DNA of 20,564 bases from positions 1 to 20,564 of the IMG/VR virus record IMGVR_UViG_3300044568_002737, one strand, 5' to 3'. The notes beneath the pieces were generated by a model, which was not told the origin of the DNA, ran no database searches, and saw only the letters and a list, made by a program, of their open reading frames with translations. Source of the DNA: a virus. Made by a program: the position numbers and the translations under genes. This document shows, in pieces, positions 838 to 20,564 of this stretch (the stretch's first letter is position 1; every line of letters begins with the position of its first letter).

Positions 838-2034
838 ATGGCACTTTTCAATCTAACTGATATCGCATATAAAAAGTTGCAAACGGATAATAGATCGTTT
901 GCTGGCTTCTCTAATGGCCTGAGTAATTACAATCCAAATTTAATGAGATATCCGTCCGACCTTGGCAACACAGACAAAGGTCATTACATGTTGATTCATG
1001 TAAACGCTCAAGACAAAACAGCTTATCCGGTCAATGCCGCACCTGATCGTAGATCACAAATACAGAAAAATCGTGAGGGACTTCGCGCACGAACAGGAGC
1101 AGTAAATATTGGCGGCGGTGCAAAAACCATCATTGATGCACTGAAATCGCTCACTGGCGGTCTTTCAGCACCGACAGGTCCAATTGGAGAATCATCTGAC
1201 ACTGAAATGAGTTTGATCGGATATGGCTCTACTGGCGGGTTTCTGCAGGCAGCACAAACCACATTCAATAAAGCAATTGGAACACTGGATGACGCCAAGT
1301 TTTTGAGGACTACGACACGAACGATGGATACGATTGCACTATACATGCCCGATACGTTAGCATTTACCGATAATCAATACTATTCAAAACTAGAACTAGG
1401 TAAAGAAAATGCAGCCAAAGCCGCAGCTGGAGTTTCAATTTTGAGTGATTCAATAACAGGAAAAGAGTTTGATCCTAGTAAATTGGGTAAAAATGCAACT
1501 CCATTTTTGGGAGCAATCGCAGCAAAATTGTCTAGTGGTATATTGGGTGAAAGCTCCGCAACTGCACTTTTCGCATCAGCGTTTGGATTAGTCAAGAATC
1601 CTCAGTTGGAATTGCTATACACATCTCCTGATTTTAGGCAGTTTGCTTTTGAATTTATGTTCTATCCTCGTAGCGAAAAAGAAGCAAACGAAGTTCAATC
1701 AATTATACAAAGACTAAGATTTCATCAAGCCCCTGAAATATTATCGGGTAGTGGAGGTTACTTCATGGTGCCGCCGTCTGAATTTGATATAGAATTTCAC
1801 TATAATGGTGAAGTGAATCCAAACATTCCTGCAATATCAACATGTGCATTGACTTCAATTAGTGTGGACTATGCGCCTAATGGATTCAGAGCGTATGAAG
1901 TTCCTGGCGAAAATACACCGACACTAGGATCAACGGGTATGCCTGTCGGTATACGAGTGAATCTAACTTTCCAAGAATTGGAAATTATGACAAAATTCAA
2001 CTATGAAAATAAAACAAATCGTGGGAAAGTATAA
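838..2034 (+). CDS. gp48: Baseplate tail-tube cap protein gp48
   Basis: A 398-residue protein, slightly longer than T4 gp48 (about 364). In T4, gp48 sits on the central hub, caps the baseplate and, with gp54, nucleates tail-tube polymerisation. The C-terminal half carries the recognisable part: LLYTSPDFRQFAFEFMFYPR, then EANEVQSIIQRLRFHQAPE, a FMVPPSEFDIEFHY strand and a final VNLTFQELEIMTKF. This is the tube-protein-like fold shared by gp48, gp54 and tail tube proteins. The Gly/Ala-rich middle (roughly residues 95-270) is less conserved and may be an insertion. The stop overlaps the gp53 start (TAATG). gp54 is the main alternative, but the adjacency to gp53 and the hub genes and the sequence favour gp48. 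Confidence 0.82.
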   Translation: MALFNLTDIAYKKLQTDNRSFAGFSNGLSNYNPNLMRYPSDLGNTDKGHYMLIHVNAQDKTAYPVNAAPDRRSQIQKNREGLRARTGAVNIGGGAKTIIDALKSLTGGLSAPTGPIGESSDTEMSLIGYGSTGGFLQAAQTTFNKAIGTLDDAKFLRTTTRTMDTIALYMPDTLAFTDNQYYSKLELGKENAAKAAAGVSILSDSITGKEFDPSKLGKNATPFLGAIAAKLSSGILGESSATALFASAFGLVKNPQLELLYTSPDFRQFAFEFMFYPRSEKEANEVQSIIQRLRFHQAPEILSGSGGYFMVPPSEFDIEFHYNGEVNPNIPAISTCALTSISVDYAPNGFRAYEVPGENTPTLGSTGMPVGIRVNLTFQELEIMTKFNYENKTNRGKV

Positions 2035-2675
2035 TGGCCAAGTTTTTCTCATATTTTCCAAAGACAGTGTATAATCTAGGTGATCCCAAAGCACTAGACA
2101 CCATAACGAATCTGACAACCACATTCTCTTTGGACGAGAGTACATTGAATAATACTATTCTGTACTATGAATACACAGTTCCTGAGGGTGAAACGCCGGA
2201 GATTATCGCTCATAAATTTTATGGCGATGTTGAACAACACTGGCTAATTATGAAAATGAATAACATTGTTGATCCTAAAGCTGATTGGCCAATGGACAGC
2301 AGAACATTTGCGACATACATTGAAGAGAAGTATGCAAACAATGGCATATCTCAAAGTACGACAGGATATCAGTGGGCCAAGTCAAATAACCATTCATACT
2401 ATAAAATTGAAACACGCACATTGACACTCACCGGACAAAAGACAGTGGACAAGATTGAAATTGATGCGAACACATATACGAACGTCCAAACGTCTACGTC
2501 AACATACACACTTGCTGATGGATACCAATTACGTGTGGATATAGACAAGACTGTTCTTTCATACTATGATTATGAGTTGGAATTGAACGATGATAGGCGA
2601 AACATTAAGATCATGAAGCCTGAATATGTTTCAACAATACAAGATGAATTTGTAAGGGTTATGAGTAATGGCTGA
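2034..2675 (+). CDS. gp53: Baseplate wedge protein gp53
   Basis: A 213-residue protein (T4 gp53 is about 196). It starts MAKFFSYFPKTVYNL, a typical gp53 opening. Residues about 44-80 form a LysM-like segment: YYEYTVPEGETPEIIAHKFY, then a WLIMKMNNIVDP motif. In T4, gp53 joins late in wedge assembly, clamps neighbouring wedges together and contacts the central hub. Its role here is inferred from family and synteny. The start codon overlaps the gp48 stop by one base, and its 3' end overlaps the next gene by eight bases, so translation is probably coupled on both sides. Confidence 0.9.
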   Translation: MAKFFSYFPKTVYNLGDPKALDTITNLTTTFSLDESTLNNTILYYEYTVPEGETPEIIAHKFYGDVEQHWLIMKMNNIVDPKADWPMDSRTFATYIEEKYANNGISQSTTGYQWAKSNNHSYYKIETRTLTLTGQKTVDKIEIDANTYTNVQTSTSTYTLADGYQLRVDIDKTVLSYYDYELELNDDRRNIKIMKPEYVSTIQDEFVRVMSNG

Positions 2676-5857: not shown

Positions 5858-6706
5858 ATGGCAGGCGCAAACGTATTCAACAGATTGAGTTTCAGTTTTG
5901 ACACAGGTAAGTTTGGTGACGCAATTTTTTTGAGCGACAATACAAAAGACTTTTTAAACACACAACCTGTATCATTGGAGACATGGCAAAAAAATGATCT
6001 CGCCAACGGCACAATTATTGTAACAAATTATTACAAAAATCCAGTTCTGAATGTGTGTAATCAACTACAGTCTAGCACGCAAAATTTGTATAATGTTATG
6101 CTGACTATTACTGCATATGATACAGCAAATGGAGAAGCACTATCATCATCAGCAAACACACTTTTGACGGAAATATTCTTATTCAAACAACACACATCAA
6201 ATGTTGCTGGTGTGACTAAAGCTGAAGCTACCGTACCCGAAGATGGTTCTCCAGTCATTGAATACCCAGATTATGATTCTGCTGTGCAATTGGGACAAGA
6301 TTTGTTGATGCTGCTGAATAACACAGATGGTATTCAAGACTCATCACCTGTATTGGGCAATATGACAAGTTTGTTCATTGGTGATGAAATTGCAGCGAAT
6401 CTGACAATTATTACAGGCGACTATCCTACACTAAATGCATCATTGTATCTGGACGCAAATAGTAACGTAGTGTCAAATATCACAGCCACCGCTGCAAATT
6501 TGATAGTTTCACACATACAAACTGCTAGTGGAATGTTAAGTACACGTAGACTCCATGATTGGAATTTCTTCAGGCAAGGATCAATCTTACTTGAAGATTA
6601 CAGTCGTATTGATAAGTTGGAGAACGTAGGAAATACACAATCCTTTTTGATCAATACTTTGATAGGAACAGATGAATATAAGCAAAAAATCTCAGCAAAC
6701 ACCTGA
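5858..6706 (+). CDS. Unrecognised protein between the spike and gp25, probably structural
   Basis: A 282-residue protein that I cannot assign to a T4 gene. It has no signal peptide, membrane segment or catalytic motif that I can see. The N-terminus (NRLSFSFDTGKFGDAIF) looks like a short beta segment. The middle is rich in Asn, Thr, Ser and Ala, with probable helices around LLTEIFLFKQHTS and VQLGQDLLMLLNN. The C-terminus is more conserved-looking: HDWNFFRQGSILLEDYSRID, then VGNTQSFLINTLIG. Its place inside an uninterrupted baseplate operon implies a virion or assembly role, perhaps at the hub-wedge interface. A chaperone is also possible. The start is supported by GGAG six bases upstream. The stop codon forms part of the octamer before gp25. 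Confidence 0.8.
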   Translation: MAGANVFNRLSFSFDTGKFGDAIFLSDNTKDFLNTQPVSLETWQKNDLANGTIIVTNYYKNPVLNVCNQLQSSTQNLYNVMLTITAYDTANGEALSSSANTLLTEIFLFKQHTSNVAGVTKAEATVPEDGSPVIEYPDYDSAVQLGQDLLMLLNNTDGIQDSSPVLGNMTSLFIGDEIAANLTIITGDYPTLNASLYLDANSNVVSNITATAANLIVSHIQTASGMLSTRRLHDWNFFRQGSILLEDYSRIDKLENVGNTQSFLINTLIGTDEYKQKISANT

Positions 6707-7122: not shown

Positions 7123-9195
7123 ATGGCTGATCGTCTAAACGTAACAGAGTTAGATTTTGACTCTATAAAAAATAATCTTAGAAACTTTCTAAGACAGCAA
7201 TCCGAATTCCAAGACTATGATTTTGAGGGTTCAGGGCTGAATGTTCTATTGGATGTTTTGGCATATAACACCCACTACAATGCATACTATCTGAATATGA
7301 TTGCTAATGAATCATTTCTAGACAGCGCATCACTCAGAAATTCTGTAGTATCCCACGCAAAGAGAGTCGGCTATACACCAAGATCAGTAAAAGCTCCTAT
7401 GGCGATAGTCAACATCACTGTACAGACAGACAATGCCACACCAGGAAGTTTGACAATTCCTAAAGGCTATGTTCTGCTTTCATCACAGTTGGATGGCGTT
7501 TCGTATCGTTTTGTTACACTAACATCACATACGGCGACTAAGACGGGGCAAAATTTCATATTCAGTAATATTCCTGTTTATGAAGGACAGTATGTTCAGT
7601 ATTCATATACGAACAGTTATTCAAGTAATCCAAGACAAATTTTTAGTATTCCTGACAGCAATGTTGACACATCAACTTTGACTGTAAGTGTGAGACAGTC
7701 ATCAGCAAACTCAGACAGTACAGTATATACAATTGCAACAGACGCACTCGGTTTATCTGCTAATTCCACTGTGTATTATCTGCAAGAGGGAAACAACGCC
7801 CAGTACCAAATTTATTTTGGTGACAACGTTTTGAGTAAAAAGTTACCCGATGGTGGTGTAGTTGATGTTCAGTATTTGTTAACTAATGGTGAAGCGGCAA
7901 ATAAATCTAACAATTTTATCTCAACAACTCCGATCAGTGGATTGAGTTCCATCATAGTGAATTCCCAGTTAGCTGCTTCAGGTGGTAACAACAGGGAGAC
8001 TGTGGACCAGATAAAGTTTGCTGCACCACTAAGTCTTCTATCACAGAATCGCGCTGTCACCAAGAATGATTACATTAGAATCATTCAACAAAAATATCCA
8101 GCTTTTGAAGCAGTGAACGTATGGGGTGGAGAAGAGAATGAGCCACCAGTTTTTGGTAAAGTTTTTATTGCAGCAAAGCCAAAATTAGGCTTTGAGGTAA
8201 CGCAAACCGAAAAAGACTTTGTAACACAAAATATCATACGTCCGATTAGTATATTGACAGTCGATCCAGAGATCGTTGATGTGAACTACAACTATCTCAA
8301 ACTTGAAGCTGTTGTTTACTACGACAAAACAAAAACCACAAAATCAGACTCAGAATTGATTGTTGGAACAAAAACAGTAATGCAAAATTACTGCAATATA
8401 AACTTGAATCAATTCAACAGCTATTTTAGATATTCAGGTCTTGAGACTGCAATTGATGCATATGATAAAGCCATTATTTCAAATGATGTTGAAGCGTTTG
8501 TTGCTAAGAAGTTTAGACCAAGTCTGACACAGACCAACAACTATGTTCTGGATTTTGGATTAGAATTGGCCAGAGGAACAACCGATGACAATTTCTATTC
8601 CTCACCCGACTTCACTTTATTAGATGAAACGAACGTACAGAGACAGTGTTTCTTTGAGGAAGTGCCATCATCTTTCTCAGGACTAGAATCAGTAACAATT
8701 ACCAACACGGGTTTTGGATACACATCAACACCAACAGTAACAATTATTGGTGATGGCACAGGAGCCAAAGCTGTTGCGGTTGTCGTGAACGGTAAAGTTA
8801 CTGAGATTAATGTTACGAATCCTGGTATCGGATACACATCCGTTGCTGTCCAAATAACAGGTGGTGGTGGAAGACTAGCATCAGCATTGGGTGTCTTACA
8901 GGGACGATATGGACAAGTGAGAATTGCTTATTATAGAACGGATGCAACAAGTAGCCAGAGCACCAAAATTGTGCTGAATGTGAACAAAAATAATGGAGTT
9001 GTCGGTACAATTGACTATCAATTGGGTAAAATAACAATTGAGTCGTTTAATCCCATTGCAGTTAACAACAGTTTTGGTGACATTATGGTACACATTAGAC
9101 CAGGAATAAAGATCATCCAATCTAAGCTAGATAAGATGTTGGTTCTGGATGCGGATGATCCAACAAGTATTACAGTCAAAACTGTCGCAATATAA
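7123..9195 (+). CDS. gp6: Baseplate wedge protein gp6
   Basis: A 690-residue protein (T4 gp6 is about 660). The N-terminus (LDFDSIKNNLRNFLRQQSEF, FEGSGLNVLLDVLAYNTHYN, YYLNMIANESFLDSA) is typical of the gp6/baseplate J-like family. A middle segment (LSLLSQNRAVTKNDYIRIIQ) is also characteristic. gp6 dimers form the ring that holds the six wedges together and rearranges on sheath contraction. Residues about 519-590 hold a Gly/Tyr repeat module: VTITNTGFGYTSTPTVTI, then INVTNPGIGYTSVAVQITGG. I do not recall this in T4 gp6, and it recurs in gp7, gp8 and the DUF4815-type protein. The start follows AGG at 7115-7117, overlapping the end of gp25. The stop is two bases before the gp7 ATG. Confidence 0.93.
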   Translation: MADRLNVTELDFDSIKNNLRNFLRQQSEFQDYDFEGSGLNVLLDVLAYNTHYNAYYLNMIANESFLDSASLRNSVVSHAKRVGYTPRSVKAPMAIVNITVQTDNATPGSLTIPKGYVLLSSQLDGVSYRFVTLTSHTATKTGQNFIFSNIPVYEGQYVQYSYTNSYSSNPRQIFSIPDSNVDTSTLTVSVRQSSANSDSTVYTIATDALGLSANSTVYYLQEGNNAQYQIYFGDNVLSKKLPDGGVVDVQYLLTNGEAANKSNNFISTTPISGLSSIIVNSQLAASGGNNRETVDQIKFAAPLSLLSQNRAVTKNDYIRIIQQKYPAFEAVNVWGGEENEPPVFGKVFIAAKPKLGFEVTQTEKDFVTQNIIRPISILTVDPEIVDVNYNYLKLEAVVYYDKTKTTKSDSELIVGTKTVMQNYCNINLNQFNSYFRYSGLETAIDAYDKAIISNDVEAFVAKKFRPSLTQTNNYVLDFGLELARGTTDDNFYSSPDFTLLDETNVQRQCFFEEVPSSFSGLESVTITNTGFGYTSTPTVTIIGDGTGAKAVAVVVNGKVTEINVTNPGIGYTSVAVQITGGGGRLASALGVLQGRYGQVRIAYYRTDATSSQSTKIVLNVNKNNGVVGTIDYQLGKITIESFNPIAVNNSFGDIMVHIRPGIKIIQSKLDKMLVLDADDPTSITVKTVAI
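8680..8890 (+). repeat. GxGY repeat module inside gp6
   Basis: This encodes two related beta-rich units, each with a Gly-x-Gly-Tyr-Thr turn (GFGYTSTPTVTI and GIGYTSVAVQIT), separated by an Ala/Val-rich strand. The same design appears in gp7, gp8 and the protein at 13383-19544. It is protein-level similarity, not a DNA repeat. Confidence 0.65.
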
Positions 9196-9197
9196 CA

Positions 9198-12041
9198 ATG
9201 ACAAACGTAAAAACATCAACAATTGTCGGAACACAATTACCCGACTTTGTTAGAAATGACTATCCTGTATTCATAACATTCCTTGAGAAATATTATGAAT
9301 GGTTGGAGACACAGCAAAATGTTTCTAGTGGTATAAATCAACTTCAACTATCTAAAGACATTGATGAAGCGAATGAGTACTATCTAGATAAGTTAAAAAA
9401 TGATTTGTTGCCATATTTTCCACAAGAAGTAGTCTCAGATAAAAGACTGTTTCTGAAGTTGGTCACGCAATTTTATAAGTCAAGTGGTACACAAGACTCT
9501 ATAAAATTTTTGTTTAGGGCGTTGTTCAACGAAAACATCGACATTTATTATCCTAAAGATGACATTTTAATTGCATCTGATGGTAAATGGGTTCTTCCAC
9601 TTGCGCTCCGCGTGGACACAAACGACTTGAACATTTTCAATATAGAAAATACTCTAATTATTGGACAAACATCAAAAGCCACTGCCGTAGTTGAAAAAGT
9701 AATACAGTCTGTTGATAGACAGTTAGGCATCACATATATTGAGTTGTATGTATCAAACGTCAAAAGATTGTTTGATACAGGTGAAGATATAATTGCAAAC
9801 TATATCGATCCGATAACAAATTTAAATGTTACTGTTATTGCCAAACTTATTGGATCACTATCTGAAATAAGAATTAATCCTAGATTTCGTGGCGCTTTCT
9901 ATAACGGCGGCACATTTACACCAACAGGATTTGTTGAGGGTGATCCAGTAACTATTGTTGGTGGATTGAATCCGACCGCAAACAATCCAATTGGCGCGAT
10001 TGCATATGTTGGAGAGACAACCAGTGGTGGCGTAGAAAGTATTTTTATCACAGATGGTGGATTCGGATTTAGAAATCCTGTAGATGATTTGTATGCAGAT
10101 ACACCAACATCAATTGTGGATTTCAGAGGTGGTTTTGTAGACGCACCATCTCTTGGCCAAGAAGCAAAAGCAACTGTAAGTTTAATTGACACAGCAAATA
10201 CGCGAAATGTAAATGTGTCAACTATGACAGTATCATTGTTGGACGGTGCAACAATAACCATAGCAGCAATAGAAACATCCACTATTCAAAACGTATCGAC
10301 ATATTCTGAATTTTCGGTTCATCCAATATCGTTTGTTCTATTGGACACAGGTGGTGGCGGTTATAGACAGAGACCAACAATTAAAACATATAGTTTGTAT
10401 AATGAAGATTTTCCGGACTCACTAATTATTCCTTCCGCAATTGCACTAAAGGGTGCTAGAACCATAGTTGATAACACACCAGGTCAAGACTTTACAGTAG
10501 ATGTTGAGCGTGGTGATTATGTTAGACTTTTTATACAAAATAAATTTGAGGAAGTACTAGAGTTATCTGACGTTACCGCAAACACATTATTTTTTAATGA
10601 AACATTTCCTGTGGATATTGGATTTGGTGGTGCGCAAGGAATTCTGGAAGTATATAAGATCAATAGAAATGATCTCTATAAAATAGGATCATTGGGCAGA
10701 ATACAAGTTGTCAATGGTGGCACAGGCTATCAGAATGGTGATAGCATTATATTTACAGGTGGCTCCGGATATGGCGCAAATGGTTATGTGAATGTTACTG
10801 GTGGAATCATAACATCAGCAACAATAAATGCACATTCAGCTGAGGCATATGTTATAGGCGGTGAGGGTTATACAAATGAAACTTTACCAACACTCTCCGT
10901 ACAGTCAACCTCGGGTCAAGGTGCTGTTTTAGTTGTGTCCGAAGTTACTGGTTCCGGAGATGAGTATCAGTTGTCCACGTCAAGAATTGGCGCAATTACT
11001 TCATTGAAGATTAACAGCTTTGGTTACGATTATGTTTCCGCACCGATAATCTCACTGAGAAATGCTGATTTGTTACTATCAAATGTGACCGAAGGACAAT
11101 TGTTTGTTTCAAACACGGTAGTATACCAAGGAACATCAAACACAAACTTTACGTTTAGGGCATTCGTTGACAAATATGATGACGCAACATCTACCCTCAG
11201 AATTTTCAATTACATTGGAACACTCAATCGTGATCTAATCATCAAGTATGATTCTGAGTCTATGGTTGAGTCGGTGACAGCAAACGTGGTAACATCTGTG
11301 TTCTATGGCGACGGTAATGCAAGAGCAACAGCTAAATTTGAAAATGGTCTAATCAGATATCCTGGCATTTATTTGAATACTGATGGCCAACCAAGTGCGG
11401 ATAAGAGACTTCAGGATGGTTTCAAATATCACAATTTCTCTTATGTGATCAAGTCATCAACAGACTATGCTAAATTCAAAAAGCCATTGAATGATATTGT
11501 TCATCCATTGGGCACAAAAACATTTACATATAGAATGATTGATAATACGGAGAACATTGCTATAGCCAATACACTAAACTATGTGACAGTTGATGACTTA
11601 CCAAACACATACAATGTACTGTTCAATACGACAAAAATCATCAGTGCAAGCGGAACCGATAATTTGGTGTCGATTGTCAACATTGGTGATGTTATTATTA
11701 TTGATTCTGTCCGTAGAGGAATACCAAACACAGTAAATGTGGTTTCCGGCTCCAATGTTATGTTTGGAGATGCGAACAGCGTAAACTTCATTAACGATCT
11801 CCAAGACGGAGACACTATACTTTTGTCCACTGGTAACACAGCAACTGTTAGGGAAGTTGTCAACGTTTCACATGCTATCCTATCAACAACAATAAATGTA
11901 ACATCAACAACAGCTACGATAAACGTGATTTATCCCGAAGTTGTTAGAGTGAATACAGTGAATGCGAATACCATCTTTACGACAACACAAATACGCGGCA
12001 ACGGAAATAATTTGCTCGCTAGAATAGAAAAAGTGAGATAA
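9198..12041 (+). CDS. gp7: Baseplate wedge protein gp7-like
   Basis: A 947-residue protein (T4 gp7 is about 1032). The N-terminus (LPDFVRNDYPVFITFLEKYY, EWLETQQN, then LVTQFYKSSGTQDSIKFLFR) is a conserved opening of the gp7-type wedge proteins of marine T4-like phages, as far as I recall. In T4, gp7 links gp10, gp8 and gp6 in the wedge. Much of the remainder is beta-rich and low in Cys. It contains several GxGY units: about residues 276-295 (GGFGFRNP), 498-580 (GGTGYQNGDSIIFTGGSGYG, then GGEGYTNE) and 594-623 (SFGYDYVSAPII). A conserved-looking segment near 730-780 (DGFKYHNFSYVIKSS, then FKKPLNDIVHPLGTKTF) follows. Position between gp6 and gp8 is the strongest argument for the name. Its stop lies within the octamer before gp8. 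Confidence 0.8.
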   Translation: MTNVKTSTIVGTQLPDFVRNDYPVFITFLEKYYEWLETQQNVSSGINQLQLSKDIDEANEYYLDKLKNDLLPYFPQEVVSDKRLFLKLVTQFYKSSGTQDSIKFLFRALFNENIDIYYPKDDILIASDGKWVLPLALRVDTNDLNIFNIENTLIIGQTSKATAVVEKVIQSVDRQLGITYIELYVSNVKRLFDTGEDIIANYIDPITNLNVTVIAKLIGSLSEIRINPRFRGAFYNGGTFTPTGFVEGDPVTIVGGLNPTANNPIGAIAYVGETTSGGVESIFITDGGFGFRNPVDDLYADTPTSIVDFRGGFVDAPSLGQEAKATVSLIDTANTRNVNVSTMTVSLLDGATITIAAIETSTIQNVSTYSEFSVHPISFVLLDTGGGGYRQRPTIKTYSLYNEDFPDSLIIPSAIALKGARTIVDNTPGQDFTVDVERGDYVRLFIQNKFEEVLELSDVTANTLFFNETFPVDIGFGGAQGILEVYKINRNDLYKIGSLGRIQVVNGGTGYQNGDSIIFTGGSGYGANGYVNVTGGIITSATINAHSAEAYVIGGEGYTNETLPTLSVQSTSGQGAVLVVSEVTGSGDEYQLSTSRIGAITSLKINSFGYDYVSAPIISLRNADLLLSNVTEGQLFVSNTVVYQGTSNTNFTFRAFVDKYDDATSTLRIFNYIGTLNRDLIIKYDSESMVESVTANVVTSVFYGDGNARATAKFENGLIRYPGIYLNTDGQPSADKRLQDGFKYHNFSYVIKSSTDYAKFKKPLNDIVHPLGTKTFTYRMIDNTENIAIANTLNYVTVDDLPNTYNVLFNTTKIISASGTDNLVSIVNIGDVIIIDSVRRGIPNTVNVVSGSNVMFGDANSVNFINDLQDGDTILLSTGNTATVREVVNVSHAILSTTINVTSTTATINVIYPEVVRVNTVNANTIFTTTQIRGNGNNLLARIEKVR
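10026..11065 (+). repeat. Scattered GxGY repeat modules inside gp7
   Basis: Three clusters of Gly/Tyr units are encoded at about 10026-10080, 10693-10935 and 10981-11065. The middle cluster holds the clearest units (GGTGYQNGD, GGSGYGANG, GGEGYTNE). They resemble those in gp6 and gp8 at protein level. Confidence 0.55.
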
Positions 12042-12044
12042 ATA
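12037..12044 (+). promoter_or_regulatory. Late-promoter-like octamer GATAAATA before gp8
   Basis: GATAAATA matches seven of eight late-consensus positions. It contains the TAA stop of gp7 (12039-12041) and ends five bases before the gp8 ATG. It is the same octamer as before gp25, with nearly the same spacing. Promoter function is inferred. Confidence 0.4.
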
Positions 12045-12049
12045 GAACT

Positions 12050-13372
12050 ATGTCATCACTAATTACCAAAAATTTTAGAACTCTATTAGCCAAGCAAATA
12101 TTTAACTTGCTTGATATAGCAGCAAATGCATATCTGCCTGCTGGCAGAAAATCATACGTATACGCATTTATAGGAAAGCAATTACGATGGAATGCAGGAA
12201 CTGAGATTCCATTAGTTCCTGGAGAATCAATCACAGATATTAATGATTACTATAAGCGTGGCATCTTAGCCAAACAAATTTCAATTGAAAATGCATCGTT
12301 TGTTGTTGATAGGAATGATTGGACAGCCAACACAATTTACAATACATATGAAGCGAATACTAACTTTTATGTGTTGAACTCAAAAGATCAGGTGTTTAAG
12401 TGCTTAGCCAATACAGCTAACGTTGCATCAACAAATGAACCGGAACTAACACTGTCCACAACATCATTGGAGGAACCATTCATTTCGACTGGTGATGGAT
12501 ATAAGTGGAAGTACATGTACACGTTAACTTCAACGCAAAAACAAAAATATCTATCCGACGAATGGATGCCAATATCTACAAATAGATTCGTTACAGGCGC
12601 TGCTCAAGCTGGATCAATTGATATTGTTTCAATTACTAATGCAGGAAATAACTACACCGATGGAACAACCCAAGCCATCATTTCCATAGATGGTGATGGT
12701 AGGAATGCAGTATTGAGAGCTAATGTATCGGGTGGCCAAATACAAGATGTTATCATACAAAACAGAGGTAATTTTTACACATATGCCGATCTAACATTCA
12801 CTGATGTTGCAGGTGGAACGGGTGCTGGAGCAAGTGCAGTGGTAGCTATTGCACCAACAGAAGGTCACGGCTTTGATCCGGAAGTTGAATTGGATGCAAC
12901 AACACTTATGTTCAACGTTGAGTTTGCGGAGAATGAAGCTGGAGTTCTTCCAACAGATAATGATTTCCGCGAGATCGTTTTAGTACAAAATCCATCAACA
13001 TCCCTCAACACTGTAGCGACTGCAAATTTATATACATTATATAAAAATATCAAAGTTTCACCTGGTGTTGGTGACTACACCACAGACGAGGTTGTATTTC
13101 AGGGTTCAACTTTTGGCGAAGCAACTTTCACTGCGGATGTCATATCTTTTGATATTGTTAAAAACGAACTTTTTGTAAACAACGCTAGAGGAACACTGGC
13201 CACAAACTCAGCGATCAAAGGATTCAATAGTGGCGCAATCCGAATCGTCAACAATGTGACGGAGCCGACAATGCAATTGTACTCTGGAAAAATATTATAC
13301 ATATCAGATAAATTACCAATCACGCGAGATCCCTCACAGACGGAAAGAATCCGTTTCATACTGAGTTTCTAA
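12050..13372 (+). CDS. gp8: Baseplate wedge protein gp8
   Basis: A 440-residue protein, longer than T4 gp8 (334). The N-terminal half carries gp8 signatures: SYVYAFIGKQLRW, VVDRNDWTANTIYNTYE, FYVLNSKDQVFKCLAN, and DGYKWKYMYTLT followed by LSDEWMPIST. gp8 forms a dimer in each wedge and interacts with gp7, gp10 and gp6 in T4. The extra length is partly explained by a GxGY-type module at about residues 187-267 (ITNAGNNYTDGTTQAIISI, IIQNRGNFYTYADLTF). The C-terminal half (NVEFAENEAGVLPTDNDFRE, then LYSGKILYISDKLPITRDPS) again looks like gp8. The gene starts eight bases after the gp7 stop with no strong Shine-Dalgarno, only a weak GTGAG and the GATAAATA octamer. Confidence 0.92.
   Translation: MSSLITKNFRTLLAKQIFNLLDIAANAYLPAGRKSYVYAFIGKQLRWNAGTEIPLVPGESITDINDYYKRGILAKQISIENASFVVDRNDWTANTIYNTYEANTNFYVLNSKDQVFKCLANTANVASTNEPELTLSTTSLEEPFISTGDGYKWKYMYTLTSTQKQKYLSDEWMPISTNRFVTGAAQAGSIDIVSITNAGNNYTDGTTQAIISIDGDGRNAVLRANVSGGQIQDVIIQNRGNFYTYADLTFTDVAGGTGAGASAVVAIAPTEGHGFDPEVELDATTLMFNVEFAENEAGVLPTDNDFREIVLVQNPSTSLNTVATANLYTLYKNIKVSPGVGDYTTDEVVFQGSTFGEATFTADVISFDIVKNELFVNNARGTLATNSAIKGFNSGAIRIVNNVTEPTMQLYSGKILYISDKLPITRDPSQTERIRFILSF
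12610..12850 (+). repeat. GxGY-type repeat module inside gp8
   Basis: Two beta-rich units (NAGNNYTDGTT and NRGNFYTYADL, each followed by a Gly/Ala-rich strand) sit between the conserved N- and C-terminal halves of gp8. They match the module in gp6 in order and spacing, although the Gly of GxGY is replaced by Asn in places. Confidence 0.5.
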
Positions 13373-13373
13373 C

Positions 13374-13378
13374 GAGGA
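13374..13378 (+). promoter_or_regulatory. Ribosome binding site GAGGA
   Basis: GAGGA lies four bases before the ATG at 13383 and one base after the gp8 stop. It is the strongest Shine-Dalgarno in the window, in front of its largest gene. Confidence 0.7.
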
Positions 13379-13382
13379 ATAA

Positions 13383-16300
13383 ATGACAACTCTATTCAAT
13401 TACGATCCATATTATGACGACTTTGATGAAGATAAAAACTTCATGCGCGTTCTTTTCCGTCCAGGATATTCTGTTCAGGCAAGAGAACTAACACAACTAC
13501 AAACAATTCTTTCAAATCAAATTGAAAAATTTGGTAATCACATCTTCAAAAGTGGTAGTCCAATAACTGGTGGAAAAATTTCAATCGATAGAAAAACAAA
13601 CTATGTTGTGCTACAAACACAGTATAGTGGTATTGATATTGATCCTAACGAATTTTTGGATAAGACAATTGTTAGTTTTGAAAATAACAAACTTGTTCGA
13701 GCTAAAGTTATTGCGATAGATACGACAACAACTAATCCTATACTGATTATTAAGTATTTAAGCGGAGATCGTTTTGCTGCAGGTGAAAGTTTACGGGTGT
13801 TTGGACAAAACATTTTTGCTACATTGACTCAAACAAATGCAGTTGGTGGTTCAATCGTTGCAAGCATTCAGGACGGCATATATTATTTCAAAGGTCAATT
13901 TGTCAAAGTTGTCCCACAATTCTTAGTACTGGAAACATTCTATAGAATTGGTGAAAATATATCTGCAATTAACATAAAGCCATCGTGCAAGATTGGTATT
14001 GAGTTTGATGAAAATATCCTAGATGAAATTGATGACACTTCATTATTGGATCCAGCACAAGGTGCATTCAACTACCAAGCTCCAGGAGCAAATCGTTTTC
14101 AAATTGCAACAAGGCTTGCAAAACGCACATTGGATTCAGTGGACACTTCCACATTTTTCGAAATCATTCGTTTAGTTGATGATGTAAAGACAAAAGAAAT
14201 TGATTATCCGATATACAGCGAAATCGAAAAAATGTTGGCGCGCAGAACATACGATGAATCTGGAAACTATACAATTGATCCGTTTGTAATTTCTTTAGAT
14301 GAGGGTGACTCAGCTAATGGTAAATTCAATGTGGTTTTGGATCCAGGTAAAGCATATGTTGGTGGATATGAATTTCAAACAATATCACCAACAATAATTG
14401 AGATTCCTCGCGCAAGAGAAACTGTTTCAGTAACAGATTATGATATTTCTACAAACTATGAAAGTTCATTAGTTATTGATGGTGTTGCTGGCACATTGGA
14501 TATAACATCTTATCCTTTGTTGGATATACATTGTGTGCCATTACAAAACGTTAATACATCATCAGCCACAGCATATACTTCGACCAAGATTGGAACACTG
14601 AATGCATCGATGATGCGTTATAACGATGCGGTAAATAGTAATCTGGGCGATACACATTCATTCAAAGTGAATGTTTTCAATGCTAATACTTCACCCATCA
14701 CAGGTACTATTCCATCAAGTGGTTCAACAACACTACGAGTGATATTGCCAACAACATTGGCACCAAACGTAGCTAATGCATATGCAAACATGTATTTTCA
14801 AATTACAAATGGATTAGGTGCTTCTTTAACTCCGATTCTTATCGTTAGCTCAAACGCAACAACTATCAATTTGGCATCAGCATTGAGCTTTATTCCAGAA
14901 TCGAATACAATTCAAATTCAATCTGATATTAGAACAACAAAATCCATTGTAGCAAACACAGGCAGTTTCATTTCTTTTGCAGGAAATATAAATTCAGATT
15001 CGATTGATCCTGTAACAGGATTCACATACATCAACGAACCTAAACGAACAAGTCGTATTTTTGAAGTTCCTTATCCTGCGATAAAAGAAGGCACAATTAA
15101 TAACACAGATTTCTTCGCTAAAAAACTTTATGCGAACAGAACATCCGATGCTGGCACCAACAAGTTTACCATCACGGCTGAGGGCACAGATACATTCACA
15201 TTCTCAACAACACCGGGAACTATTTCTGATGAGTTGATTCTAAACAACATCATCTGCTTCATCAGATCAGATTCTGTTACTAATGCACAATTTGGAATCA
15301 CACCAAACACTGTAGTTAGCTTGGCTAATAATCAATATACAGTAACATCATTGAGCGCAAGCAGTTTTGAGATTGATATCCGTGTGCCTGGAGTTAAAGT
15401 AGATTTATTGATAACATCAAAAATCAATAATGCGGAAAACTCATCAACAGGAACAATACGTGGCAAACAACAGATTCCTCTAGTAACCGGAGCAAATCTA
15501 CATGCAAAAGTTCCATTTGAAATGGGCGGTGCAAATACATTAGAAGATGCAAATACTGCAACAAACACATCGTTTGCGGGCGGAATCATATTTGAAGATA
15601 TCGGAGCAACCAATTTCACAGACACCACAGTGTTGCAGCAACTTAGAACACCAGGTGCAGTTGTTAGTTTGCAAGTTCCTGATGTTATAGAAATTGTTAG
15701 AATTACAGACTCATTAAGTATATCTTCAAACGTAACAACAGCAATGTTAACATTGACTGCACATAATGTTACACAAAACTATGAGTTCGATAATGGTCAG
15801 AGAAAGACACATTATGATCACGCAACGATTAAATTGAAACGAGGATTCAGTGCGCCACGTGGCAGAATCTTTGTTCAATATCGTTATCTGAAACATTTAT
15901 CTGCGCCATCTCCACAGAACGACGGTATGTTTACAGTTGACTCATATCTTAAAGATGGATCAAACTTTACATATGATGATATTTTTGCATTCAATAATGC
16001 AGAAGATGGTAAACTGACTTCCATGCGCTCGGCCTTCGATTTTCGACCAACTAGAGCTATCGGCGGAACAGCATTATCTGGCGCAATAAATCTTGAACCA
16101 CTACAAACAATTGAAACAGGATTTGAATATTATTTGTCACGCATCGATCAAATCGTTGTAAAACCATCCAAAGAATTCTCTATTGTGACAGGTAAAGCAT
16201 CATTGACTCCAGTTGCGTCGGATGTTTCGCCAGACGATATGTTGATTTACACAATATCGATTCCAGCATATACAGATAGTGTCAAGGACATTCGCGCAGA

Positions 16301-19300
16301 TTTTAAGAATCATCGCAGATATACTATGCGCGATATCGGCAACTTTGATGATCGTATCAAAAATCTAGAATACTACGTCACACTGACCGCACTAGAAAAA
16401 GATACATCAGCATTGAAGATTCTAGACAACAATGGTCTAGAAAGATCCAAATATGGTATTCTTGTGGATAACTTCACAACAAAAGATGTGCAAGCATCGA
16501 AAGAAGAAGTTGGAACAGACAACAGCAATTTGGTAGATAACGGTGAGTTGCAAGCAGCATCTTTGATGAGAACTGTCAAGATGATTGCAAATACAGCATT
16601 GACTACAGCGACTGCAAAGTTCAATGGCGCGGGTGACAAGAAAATATTGACATTGCCATACACATCAACAGAGTTGGCAAAACAACCCTACGCAACAAAA
16701 TCTATTCCTATTGCAAACGCATTGTTTGCGGCATTTAGAGGCACAACTAGATTGTGGCCAGAGTTTGTTGGCAATGTTGATACAGGAACAACAGCTAAAG
16801 TTACATTGAATTCAACACAAGGTATTGAAAATGCATTCAGCTTTGTGAACAGTGCATTTAAGTATTTGGCTGACACCAATCCACAATTTGCAGATGATAA
16901 GAACAGCCCATTTGCACAGATTGCGGACTCAAAATGGTATCAGACAAGAACTTCAGAAGCAACAACTACAGAATTTCTTGGTGGAAGAACTTGGGGTAAT
17001 GTTTTAACTACAACCGATACTAAAGTTCTGGCCGCGGGCACAGAATTAAAACAAAAACAGATTGGAACATCAGCATCTCAAGTTGATGTTGGAACTTTTG
17101 TGACTGATTTGGCTATTCAGCCGTACATGAAGTCTGGACGAGTGTTGTTCTCATCAGATGCAATGCGTCCTAGTGCATCATTTTATACTTATTTTGATGG
17201 TGTTGATGTTAACAAATATGTAGTTGTTCCAAACCGCGTTCAAATGAACACCAACTTTAGTATCACTACGTTGGTAACAGGCGAAACAATCTTTATTGCA
17301 AACACTGTTGGTGAATTGGCATTAAATGTGGCTAGCTTCTTGTCAGGTGGCAGTTCATATAGTGCGGCGCAAGTTGTGATAAATGAACCAAATTCTGCAA
17401 ATGTGTCGATCATAAATGAAACCGGTAAAACTCTAGCAGGCAAGTACGTTCGTGGGCTTGATAGTGGAACAACATCACAAATACTCTCGGTTGTTGATCA
17501 TCGTTCGGGTATTACGAGAGGTGTAACATCAACCACAATTACGTTAGCTGAAGATGCGCCATCTGTGGATATTTCAGGAAATACAATTTATCTTGTACAT
17601 TCTACACAAAATGAAAATGGACTTGGTGCATCCTTTGTCATAAGCAGTTATAACACAACAACAAAAGTTGCGACAATATCTGGCGCAGACAGCTATGTTG
17701 GTGGAACATATTCATATAGTTTTGGCACTAATCGCTCGAATAGTCTTGGTCAAGTCGGTGGCGCATTCTTTATTCCACCAGCAACATTCAGATCCGGTCA
17801 GAGAACATTACGTGTGACGGAATCATTCAACAACACATATGATGCTGACGCAATTTCATATTCTGAAAAAGTTTTCACGGCATCAGGATTGATCCTGAAC
17901 AAAACAACTCTTGTAGACACGGTTCTTAATGTTGATGTGAACTCAACAATTGTTAATGTATTGACGAGTGATCGTGTTTTATCCTCAAGCACACAAAGAA
18001 CTGTAGTTTCATCATGGGCAGTTGATCCACTAGCACAAACATTCTTTGTTGATGAACAAGTATATCCAAATGGCATTTTCTTGGAAAGCATGAACTTATT
18101 TTTCAGAAGTAAGGATGTCAATTTACCTGTTTCTGTACAAATTCGCCCAACAATAAATGGCTCACCAAGTTCAGATTTTTGGTATCCAGAATCTGTGGCA
18201 ACATTGTATCCTAGTCAAGTCAATGTTTCTGAAAATCCTTCTGTGACTACATCAGCTACTGCAACAAAATTTACATTTAGTTCGCCAGTCTTTTTGCGTC
18301 CTGGGTTGTATGCTCTTGTTGCATTAACAGAATCACCTGATTACACTCTTTGGGCCGCTGAGAAGGGTGGAACAACAAGAAACAATGAGTTTATTGGCAC
18401 TAATCCATATGTAGGAACACTATACAAATCTCAAAATACGATGGAATATGTTCCGTATTTGAATGAAGATTTGATGTTTACATTGAATCGTTGTTCGTTC
18501 AGCACAACAGGAAGCGTAAGTTTTGTGTTTGATAATGAAGTGATCACACAAATCAATGCAGACAAATTCAGATTACTAGAAAATTCGATTTCGCCATTGA
18601 CAAATGGTGTGATCACGGCAAACTACAAGCTAGTAACTAAGTTGGCGAGTGGCACAAAAGAGACTGTATATAGAAATATTGTTCCACATCAAGTGTATTC
18701 ATTTGGCACAGATGAATCACAAATCATCGGAAATCGTAGAAGAGTTGTTGGTGCTAGAGGCGATGTAAAAATCAGTCTTGACATGGCAACAACATCCGAT
18801 CACATTTCACCAATGGTGTCTCTAGAGAGCTTATACATCAACGTATGGGAAAACTTTATCGATAATGGTGCAATTTCAGCCGATGATTTTACAATCATAG
18901 ATGGTGGCGCAGGATACGCAAATGCAAATTCTGTCATTATAACAAGTTCATCTGGACTAGGCGCAACAGCCAATGTCACTGTGAATTCTCAGGGTAACGT
19001 TATTGCAGTTTATGTATCATCTGAAGGTTCAGGATACCTTGACGATTTTACTATATCATATCCTAGAGTTGGTGATGCAGGAACAACAGTGACTGCTAAC
19101 GCAAATATTGTATTGAACAGTGAGTTTGATGAATCTGCAGGGCCATGTGAAGCCAAATATATTACTAAACCTATTATCTTGGCTGATGGATTTGACGCAG
19201 GCGATCTAAGAGTATTCTTAGCTGGTAACAAACAAGGAAACTCCGAGATTAGTGTATTCTATAAAGTGTTGAATTCTTCAGATACTACAATATTCAAAGA

Positions 19301-19779: not shown

Positions 19780-20564
19780 TGACAATTCCAAATATCACAA
19801 GAAATAACACCATTGATGAGTGGCGCATACAAACTAATCAGTCGGCCAGTGAACTGAATCAGCTGGAAACGGGCAACTACGACAAAATTAGTGGCATTCT
19901 TTCTGTAGAAGGCACTGCGGCAGTTGAAATTACAGCCACAGGTACAGCACTGTCTGTGGCTAATGGTGCTTTATTCTCATCTAATATTGCCGTCGGTAAA
20001 AACATAGAACTTGGTTCACAGGAACTTGCAACAGGAAATTTAACGATTGGTGCAAATACATTTATCTATGGTAAAGGAACTGCACTATTCGTTGCAAACA
20101 ATGCGGTTGTCAATACAAATCTTCAAGTAACGAGAACTATCACAACAGCAAACGTTAATGCTAACAATAATGTGTTTATTGGTAATGTTGGTACGATAAA
20201 TCAATTGGCTGTTAACACATCATCAACTGTAGGCACAACTTTAGATGTTACTGGTAATACCACAGTTGGAAACCTAGTAACATCAAATAATGTTATCACA
20301 AGCAATCTACGTGCATCCAACGCAGTTACAACAGGCACATTATCAGTTGGCACATCAGCAACTGTTGGCACAACACTAGGCGTCACAGGCACAATCACTG
20401 GCGGTAATCTAGCTACATCCAACGCAGTTACAACAGGCACATTATCAGTTGGCACATCAGCAACTGTTGGAACAACACTAGGCGTCACAGGCACAATCAC
20501 TGGCGGTAATCTAGCTACATCCAACGCAGTTACAACAGGTACTTTGGCTGTTGATACTTCAGCA
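19779..20564 (+). CDS. Repeat-rich fibre-like structural protein (3' end cut off)
   Basis: An open frame starts at the ATG at 19779, overlapping the previous stop by one base, and runs 262 codons to the window edge without a stop. The N-terminus (MTIPNITRNNTIDEWRIQTN, then QSASELNQLETGNYDKISG) looks like a virion-attachment segment with a short helix. It is followed by beta-rich sequence built from Gly/Thr/Val/Asn units such as VGTTLDVTGNTTVGNL. From residue 180 the units become almost identical 34-residue repeats. This pattern is typical of trimeric phage tail fibres with repetitive beta structure. The receptor-binding end would lie beyond the window. The name is inferred from composition and position; no specific T4 gene is assigned. 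The only ribosome-site candidate is a weak purine run before the start, so coupling to the upstream gene is likely. Confidence 0.8.
   Translation, partial: MTIPNITRNNTIDEWRIQTNQSASELNQLETGNYDKISGILSVEGTAAVEITATGTALSVANGALFSSNIAVGKNIELGSQELATGNLTIGANTFIYGKGTALFVANNAVVNTNLQVTRTITTANVNANNNVFIGNVGTINQLAVNTSSTVGTTLDVTGNTTVGNLVTSNNVITSNLRASNAVTTGTLSVGTSATVGTTLGVTGTITGGNLATSNAVTTGTLSVGTSATVGTTLGVTGTITGGNLATSNAVTTGTLAVDTSA
20314..20564 (+). repeat. 102-bp tandem repeat in the fibre gene (2.5 copies visible)
   Basis: Copies run 20314-20415 and 20416-20517, with a third beginning at 20518 and cut by the window edge. Copies 1 and 2 differ at one base (C or A in a glycine codon, GGC or GGA), and this is silent. 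The unit is 34 codons, so copy-number change keeps the frame. A degenerate relative precedes it at about 20218-20313. Near-identity at DNA level indicates recent duplication or gene conversion. Confidence 0.9.

Follow-up and report, generated by a model that had tools for sequence, protein, structure and literature searches.

Results

GxGY modules in a T4-like baseplate cluster

The window analysed here is a 20.6-kb virus record from IMG/VR (IMGVR_UViG_3300044568_002737; 20,564 nucleotides) that is not part of any longer contig, and several of the baseplate proteins it encodes carry a repeated glycine/tyrosine (GxGY) module. The gene order is that of a T4-like baseplate: a tube cap (phrog_230), a gp53-type protein (phrog_232, baseplate wedge subunit), a tail protein, gp5-like proteins, gp25, gp6, a wedge protein at the gp7 position, gp8, a DUF4815 protein of 2,053 amino acids (aa) and the start of a fibre gene. 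The closest isolates are Methylophilales phage Melnitz and the pelagiphages Mosig and HTVC008M, with ~40% identity in gp6, and many uncultured contigs match the window at 60–98% identity. Profile matches identify gp6 (phrog_219, 1e-152), gp8 (phrog_438, 3e-89) and the DUF4815 protein (PF16075, 4.5e-51); the gp7-position protein is identified by its place in the cluster and by a wedge profile (PF23786, 4.9e-14). We use gp7 as a positional name only, because a survey of pelagimyophages reported that T4 gp7 is absent from such phages, with VrlC in its place (PMC7029224).

One two-unit module of ~80 aa is shared by gp6, gp8, the DUF4815 protein and, in more degenerate form, the gp7-position protein. 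All copies lie on the forward strand. The gp6 module (8671–8916, aa 517–598) has units at 8683–8787 (aa 521–555) and 8797–8889 (aa 559–589), matched by a unit hidden Markov model at expectation values (E) of 1.6e-13 and 2.9e-10. The gp8 module (12614–12835, aa 189–262) sits between two family-conserved halves of the protein, with units at aa 189–221 and 231–262 (E 7.5e-8 and 9.5e-9), and the module of the DUF4815/VrlC protein (18882–19100, aa 1834–1906) has units at aa 1834–1867 and 1874–1906 (E 8.2e-7 and 4.1e-4). Least regular of the four is the gp7-position protein, with one strong unit and three weak ones. Its module (10689–10934, aa 498–579) pairs the strong unit (10689–10796, aa 498–533, E 6.5e-12) with a degenerate one (10857–10934, E 0.42); of two further weak half-units, the one at 10032–10079 (aa 279–294, E 0.65) is not confidently claimed and the one at 10995–11054 (aa 600–619, E 29) is not significant. 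The first-pass annotation of the window had placed the module in these four proteins, and the unit profile finds it in each of them where it was predicted. That every protein holds repeated units proved correct for gp6, gp8 and the DUF4815 protein, which have two apiece; in the gp7-position protein the repeats are irregular. The module is also not confined to these four carriers, since gp53 and the tail sheath carry it in relatives of the window.

The unit profile was seeded from the window's own GxGY repeats and we therefore ran independent tests with profiles built from single families. The gp6-only profile finds window gp8 at 1e-9, and the gp8-only profile finds window gp6 at 3e-9. Similarly, the gp7-only profile reaches the window DUF4815 protein at 2e-4 and window gp8 at 1e-3, and the DUF4815-only profile reaches window gp6 at 2.5e-4. 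The remaining window genes all score no better than 0.5 with the family profiles, and none of the decoys (the reversed sequences of all 5,111 open reading frames) falls below 1e-3. Profile–profile comparison links gp6 to gp8 with a probability of 99%, gp7 to DUF4815 with 95%, gp6 to DUF4815 with 94%, gp6 to gp7 with 92% and gp8 to gp7 with 91%. In hhalign the gp7 module matches those of gp8, DUF4815, gp53 and sheath at 91–97%, and each family is linked to some other at 91% or more (up to 99.95%), whereas reversed decoys reach at most 2.8%. The window copies are nonetheless divergent from one another (23–42% identity at profile level). A DNA repeat search of the window gave a weak 28-nt pair of gp6 units and nothing else, so the copies are not recent DNA duplicates.

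Depth of insertion in each carrier

The module is deepest in gp8. It is present in gp8 of HTVC008M, Mosig, Melnitz and S-PM2 and, in degenerate form, of DLP6 (five of the five non-T4 relatives sampled), and in an alignment with T4 gp8 the site is empty, at about T4 aa 220. The proposal that the gp8 module is an insertion between two conserved halves agrees with this alignment. The T4 counterparts do lack the module, as the first-pass annotation stated: the unit profile has no match in T4 gp6, gp7 or gp8.

By contrast, the gp6 and DUF4815 insertions are clade-specific. The gp6 module occurs in 70+ contigs, including every relative at 45–98% identity whose contig spans the site, and is absent from gp6 of HTVC008M, Mosig, Melnitz, S-PM2, DLP6 and T4. 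The DUF4815 module is present in the window's clade wherever the contig reaches the site; in HTVC008M, Mosig and Melnitz the corresponding site has no module. The module is polymorphic in gp53, and in the sheath it is found in one small group. Three contigs of 92–162 kb were scanned completely except for 2.3 kb at the end of the longest, and significant matches are confined to gp6, gp7, gp8 and DUF4815, plus gp53 in one of the three.

In one contig (L048:6964-11631) gp6 (690 aa) and the gp7-position gene form a single open frame of 1,555 aa, which reflects a gene fusion or else an error in sequencing.

Presence and absence of the module in gp53

The gp53-type wedge protein of the window (2034–2675, forward strand) has 213 aa and no module, with an empty site near 2400–2411. 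However, gp53 (PF11246) is a 328-aa protein with a two-unit module in 17 related contigs, which come from separate metagenomes. The unusual peptide that flanks the module there also occurs in gp53 proteins of 239 aa that lack the module.

Some alleles differ in the presence of the module and are otherwise nearly identical. Comparison of L048/L077 (with) and L055/L068 (without) reveals flanks that are 99.5% (left) and 94.6% (right) identical, separated by a 267-bp in-frame difference of exactly 89 codons, all of them module. IMG/VR contigs are partly redundant and we therefore counted alleles as distinct DNA sequences. Each allele type recurs with identical sequence in several metagenomes, so that chimeric assembly is an unlikely source of the difference.

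Presence of the module does not follow the history of the gene around it. In a tree of the gp53 flanks, with the module columns removed, eight alleles with the module and eight without are interleaved, requiring six changes, at least three of which are forced by well-supported branches. A single clade of alleles with the module is rejected by the approximately unbiased test (p-AU 1e-4). Bootstrap values in this tree are not fully settled, and recombination, which is itself the claim, violates the assumption of a single tree.

The module is also younger than its surroundings. Among alleles that carry it, synonymous divergence is 0.081 in the module (95% interval 0.042–0.126) and 0.271 in the flanks (0.229–0.317); no 89-codon window of the flanks lies under 0.229. 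Another estimate of synonymous divergence gives 0.09 for the module and 0.32–0.39 for the flanks, a roughly four-fold difference. Stronger protein constraint does not account for the low value, because the ratio of non-synonymous to synonymous substitution (dN/dS) is 0.17 in the module against 0.12–0.14 in the flanks. The gp53 module has spread over older backbones, under purifying selection. Independent presence and absence among close relatives, which the first-pass annotation had named as support for mobility, is therefore what gp53 displays.

A close relative of the gp53 module in the tail sheath

Within the phages whose gp53 carries the module, a donor search returned distant copies only. 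The near copy is in sheath genes of other contigs: the closest kin outside gp53 is in tail sheath genes L170 (identified by the three Pfam models PF17482, PF04984 and PF22671), with more distant kin in L172, L173 and L174. The L170 and gp53 modules are 77% identical in amino acids and 78% in DNA over 91 codons. The L170 insert lies at the position of T4 gp18 aa ~337, and there is no insert in the sheaths of the three long contigs or in further sheaths whose cores are ~75–80% identical to that of L170. The L172 and L170 modules share their second half almost exactly and differ in the first, a pattern that suggests exchange of single units.

The gp53 and sheath genes are ~43 kb apart in contig G002, so gene neighbourhood is not required for transfer. 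The earlier idea of spread between neighbouring genes has to be revised accordingly: the copies in the window are old and divergent, and the recent transfer links two distant genes. Its other half, that the domain is mobile, is strongly supported by the clade-specific insertions in gp6 and DUF4815, the gp53 polymorphism and the close sheath copy.

Predicted fold and database matches

AlphaFold2 predictions for 38 gp6 orthologue segments give a module core with a predicted local distance difference test score (pLDDT) of ~95 and six strands, three per unit (residues 16–23, 33–38, 44–50, 53–61, 69–74 and 82–87). This is the one good structure model in all; a gp8 model was left out of the fold search for its low quality. 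Foldseek comparison of the gp6 module with the PDB returned nothing significant of any fold (best E 0.85; one antigen-binding fragment (Fab) chain at probability 0.28). The same model matches 33 predicted viral structures in BFVD at E of 1e-3 or better, with template modelling scores (TM-scores) of up to 0.73; these include baseplate wedge proteins, cyanophage tail fibres, the tail fibre of an Achromobacter podophage and Sylvanvirus proteins. Weaker matches (E 0.001–0.004) include hub lysozymes and neck protein gp14.

When the gp6 module is searched by itself, it hits 15 PHROGs; families of wedge, neck, hub lysozyme and tail fibre proteins are represented. In Pfam and NCBIfam, no model, immunoglobulin (Ig)-like or other, scores above cut-off for the module of gp6, gp53 or sheath. 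A sequence search of solved structures gave chance matches only, and a tblastn search of isolated phages with the gp6 module and gp6 C-terminus gave no match. The open literature, with subscription papers outside the search, yielded no description of a GxGY module.

Relation to known accessory domains

The same domain is found on the unrelated proteins gp6, gp7-position protein, gp8, DUF4815 protein, gp53 and sheath, as expected of a mobile accessory domain. Tandem BACON repeats of crAss-like phages resemble the GxGY repeats in that a repeated beta domain of varying copy number decorates structural proteins; they differ in belonging to another sequence family, and in varying in tandem within one protein with no movement between sheath and wedge.

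A closer parallel is provided by Ig-like accessory domains. Extra sheath domains, mostly Ig-like, and the exchange of Ig-like domains have been described across phages (PMC9230969), and in a phage survey the proteins with recent domain mosaicism were chiefly those of receptor binding and the baseplate, endolysins and polymerases (PMC10684548). Ig-like domains are non-essential beta domains that occur on head, neck, baseplate, sheath and fibre proteins unrelated to one another, come and go by recombination and are proposed to make weak surface contacts; the GxGY module resembles them in these respects, its dispensability and surface contact being putative. The GxGY module differs in being two copies of a three-strand GxGY unit, with no Ig-like profile match and no significant PDB fold match. 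Judged by profile, it appears to be a separate domain that works similarly.

T4 itself may hold a relative. Domain I of T4 gp18 (aa 98–188) is a six-stranded beta-barrel inserted in sheath domain II (PMC3004832), and like the GxGY module it is an insertion of ~90 aa and six strands in a tail protein. These residues (L006:24536-26515) read as two weak, divergent GxGY units, TISTPGSNYAVGDKITV and KKINIPTGKNY. The single-unit profile scores 16.8 bits there, compared with at most 11.6 in 1,950 shuffles; the two-unit profile is not significant (E 1.1). Domain I and the L170 insert occupy different sites (aa 98–188 and aa ~337 of T4 gp18), and T4 gp18 is absent among the 50 PDB fold matches listed for the gp6 module. 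Domain I may be a solved member of the GxGY family, although this is unproven.

Other features

A different module of ~70 aa (GTANVS..S..V.G.NT.F...GS.I.I.G....V..I.SNT.L.VDS) stands between two GxGY units in gp8 of contig L027 (11488–13029, aa 229–300). Up to two copies are also found in gp7-position proteins (L085, L083, L056) and in head–tail adaptor Ad2 proteins (L153:1462-2415, L136:10994-11947), and this module is possibly another mobile domain. The gp7-position protein of HTVC008M (L001:23435-26485) is annotated "head closure Hc2", possibly from a GxGY match to phrog_460, with a risk of misannotation.

Two further window genes are unusual. The 282-aa gene at 5858–6706 has no PHROG match, and its relatives are 881–954 aa long (L058:251-3115, L071:5269-7914, L074:5446-8211), indicating large insertions or fusions. 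The fibre-like last gene (20304–20564) contains 102-bp (34-aa) tandem repeats; copies 1 and 2 are 95–96% identical and the contig end cuts the array.

Discussion

The GxGY module is best explained, with a probability of about 0.68, as an independently folding mobile accessory domain with a surface-contact job. The two parts of this explanation are not equally firm. That it is a mobile shared domain is highly probable, given a shared origin, the predicted gp6 fold, clade-specific insertion into loops that relatives have without it, polymorphism in gp53 with recent spread there, and the close sheath copy. For a surface-contact role the chances are even.

We envisage a domain of 80–95 aa whose two tandem three-strand units form a compact six-stranded beta domain, probably exposed in loops on the surface of T4-like (Kyanoviridae-type) virion proteins. 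Movement between families would occur by rare in-frame illegitimate or short-homology recombination. Within a family, homologous recombination in the flanks at co-infection would swap intact and empty alleles, uncoupling presence of the module from the remainder of the gene. Its likely job would be to provide an exposed, dispensable, weakly adhesive or shielding tail surface in many copies per particle; a stabilising role is also conceivable.

Similar composition could in principle produce similar repeats, and convergence of Gly/Thr/Ala-rich beta repeats without shared origin would agree with the biased composition and with some reversed decoys at E 0.006–0.03 (gp8 and gp7 profiles). Yet no decoy reaches 1e-3, the separation of real pairs from decoys in profile comparison is wide, and strand order is alike in the predicted models of gp6 and gp8; we consider convergence very improbable. 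Only a little less improbable is an old domain inherited vertically in each protein family, with absences as losses and no movement between genes. In its favour are the gp8 module, found in every non-T4 relative checked, and the strong divergence of the four window copies, and it could still fit gp8 and part of gp7. For gp53 and sheath it is contradicted: proteins without other shared homology hold a 77% identical copy, the gp53 module is younger than its flanks at synonymous sites, and its presence is scattered. A DNA-level mobile element or diversity-generating cassette, with the repeat as cargo, would produce a clean presence or absence at a single site, but the insert is exactly 89 codons of module with no space for a nuclease, recombinase or reverse transcriptase, and its alleles are conserved rather than hypervariable. 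Of all the alternatives this is the one we credit least.

The most substantial alternative accepts a mobile shared domain and gives it an internal role, cementing wedge or sheath subunits or tuning the contraction trigger without contacting the host. In phage 812, extra sheath domains have been suggested to hold the sheath discs together (PMC9230969). Moreover, the three near-complete contigs carry copies solely in wedge proteins (gp6, gp7, gp8, DUF4815, gp53) and none in fibres. Against this stand near-identical gp53 alleles without the module, and the same predicted fold in proteins of other phages, namely tail fibres, hub lysozymes and endosialidases. Because the module recurs on such outward parts, we favour weak adhesion or shielding at the surface and regard internal cementing as rather unlikely. 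The module comes and goes in near-identical gp53 genes and is therefore unlikely to be needed for assembly there; such dispensability would argue against an essential inter-wedge role in gp53, one of the roles that the first-pass annotation had offered beside glycan binding and stabilisation. Three observations weigh against the accessory-domain explanation. The module has gone to fixation in the gp6 clade, where it is constrained and may be essential. Direct comparison of the gp6 module with that of gp53 gives a weak match (hhalign 9%), and the two are linked through gp7 and DUF4815. Finally, the AlphaFold2 model of whole gp8 is poor (mean pLDDT 51), with a module region that is relatively confident and has the gp6 strand order.

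Wedge and sheath proteins are usually viewed as the conserved core of the contractile tail, and the fibres as its only variable part. In these phages a separate family of domains that no Pfam or NCBIfam model covers is exchanged between core tail proteins, and gene copies with and without it segregate as alleles. Annotation and profile clustering can be misled by GxGY stretches that proteins have in common, as the breadth of PHROG matches to the gp6 module alone illustrates. The near-intact empty-site control in gp53 allows a direct test of the role of a decoration domain. More tentatively, and at slightly less than even odds, lake and sea populations of T4-like phages maintain this unnamed domain as a pool that recombines in frame among essential wedge, sheath, neck, hub and fibre proteins and supplies exchangeable surface patches that sweep as presence/absence alleles. 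If so, the pool would constitute a fast adaptive layer on conserved parts, independent of the backbone.

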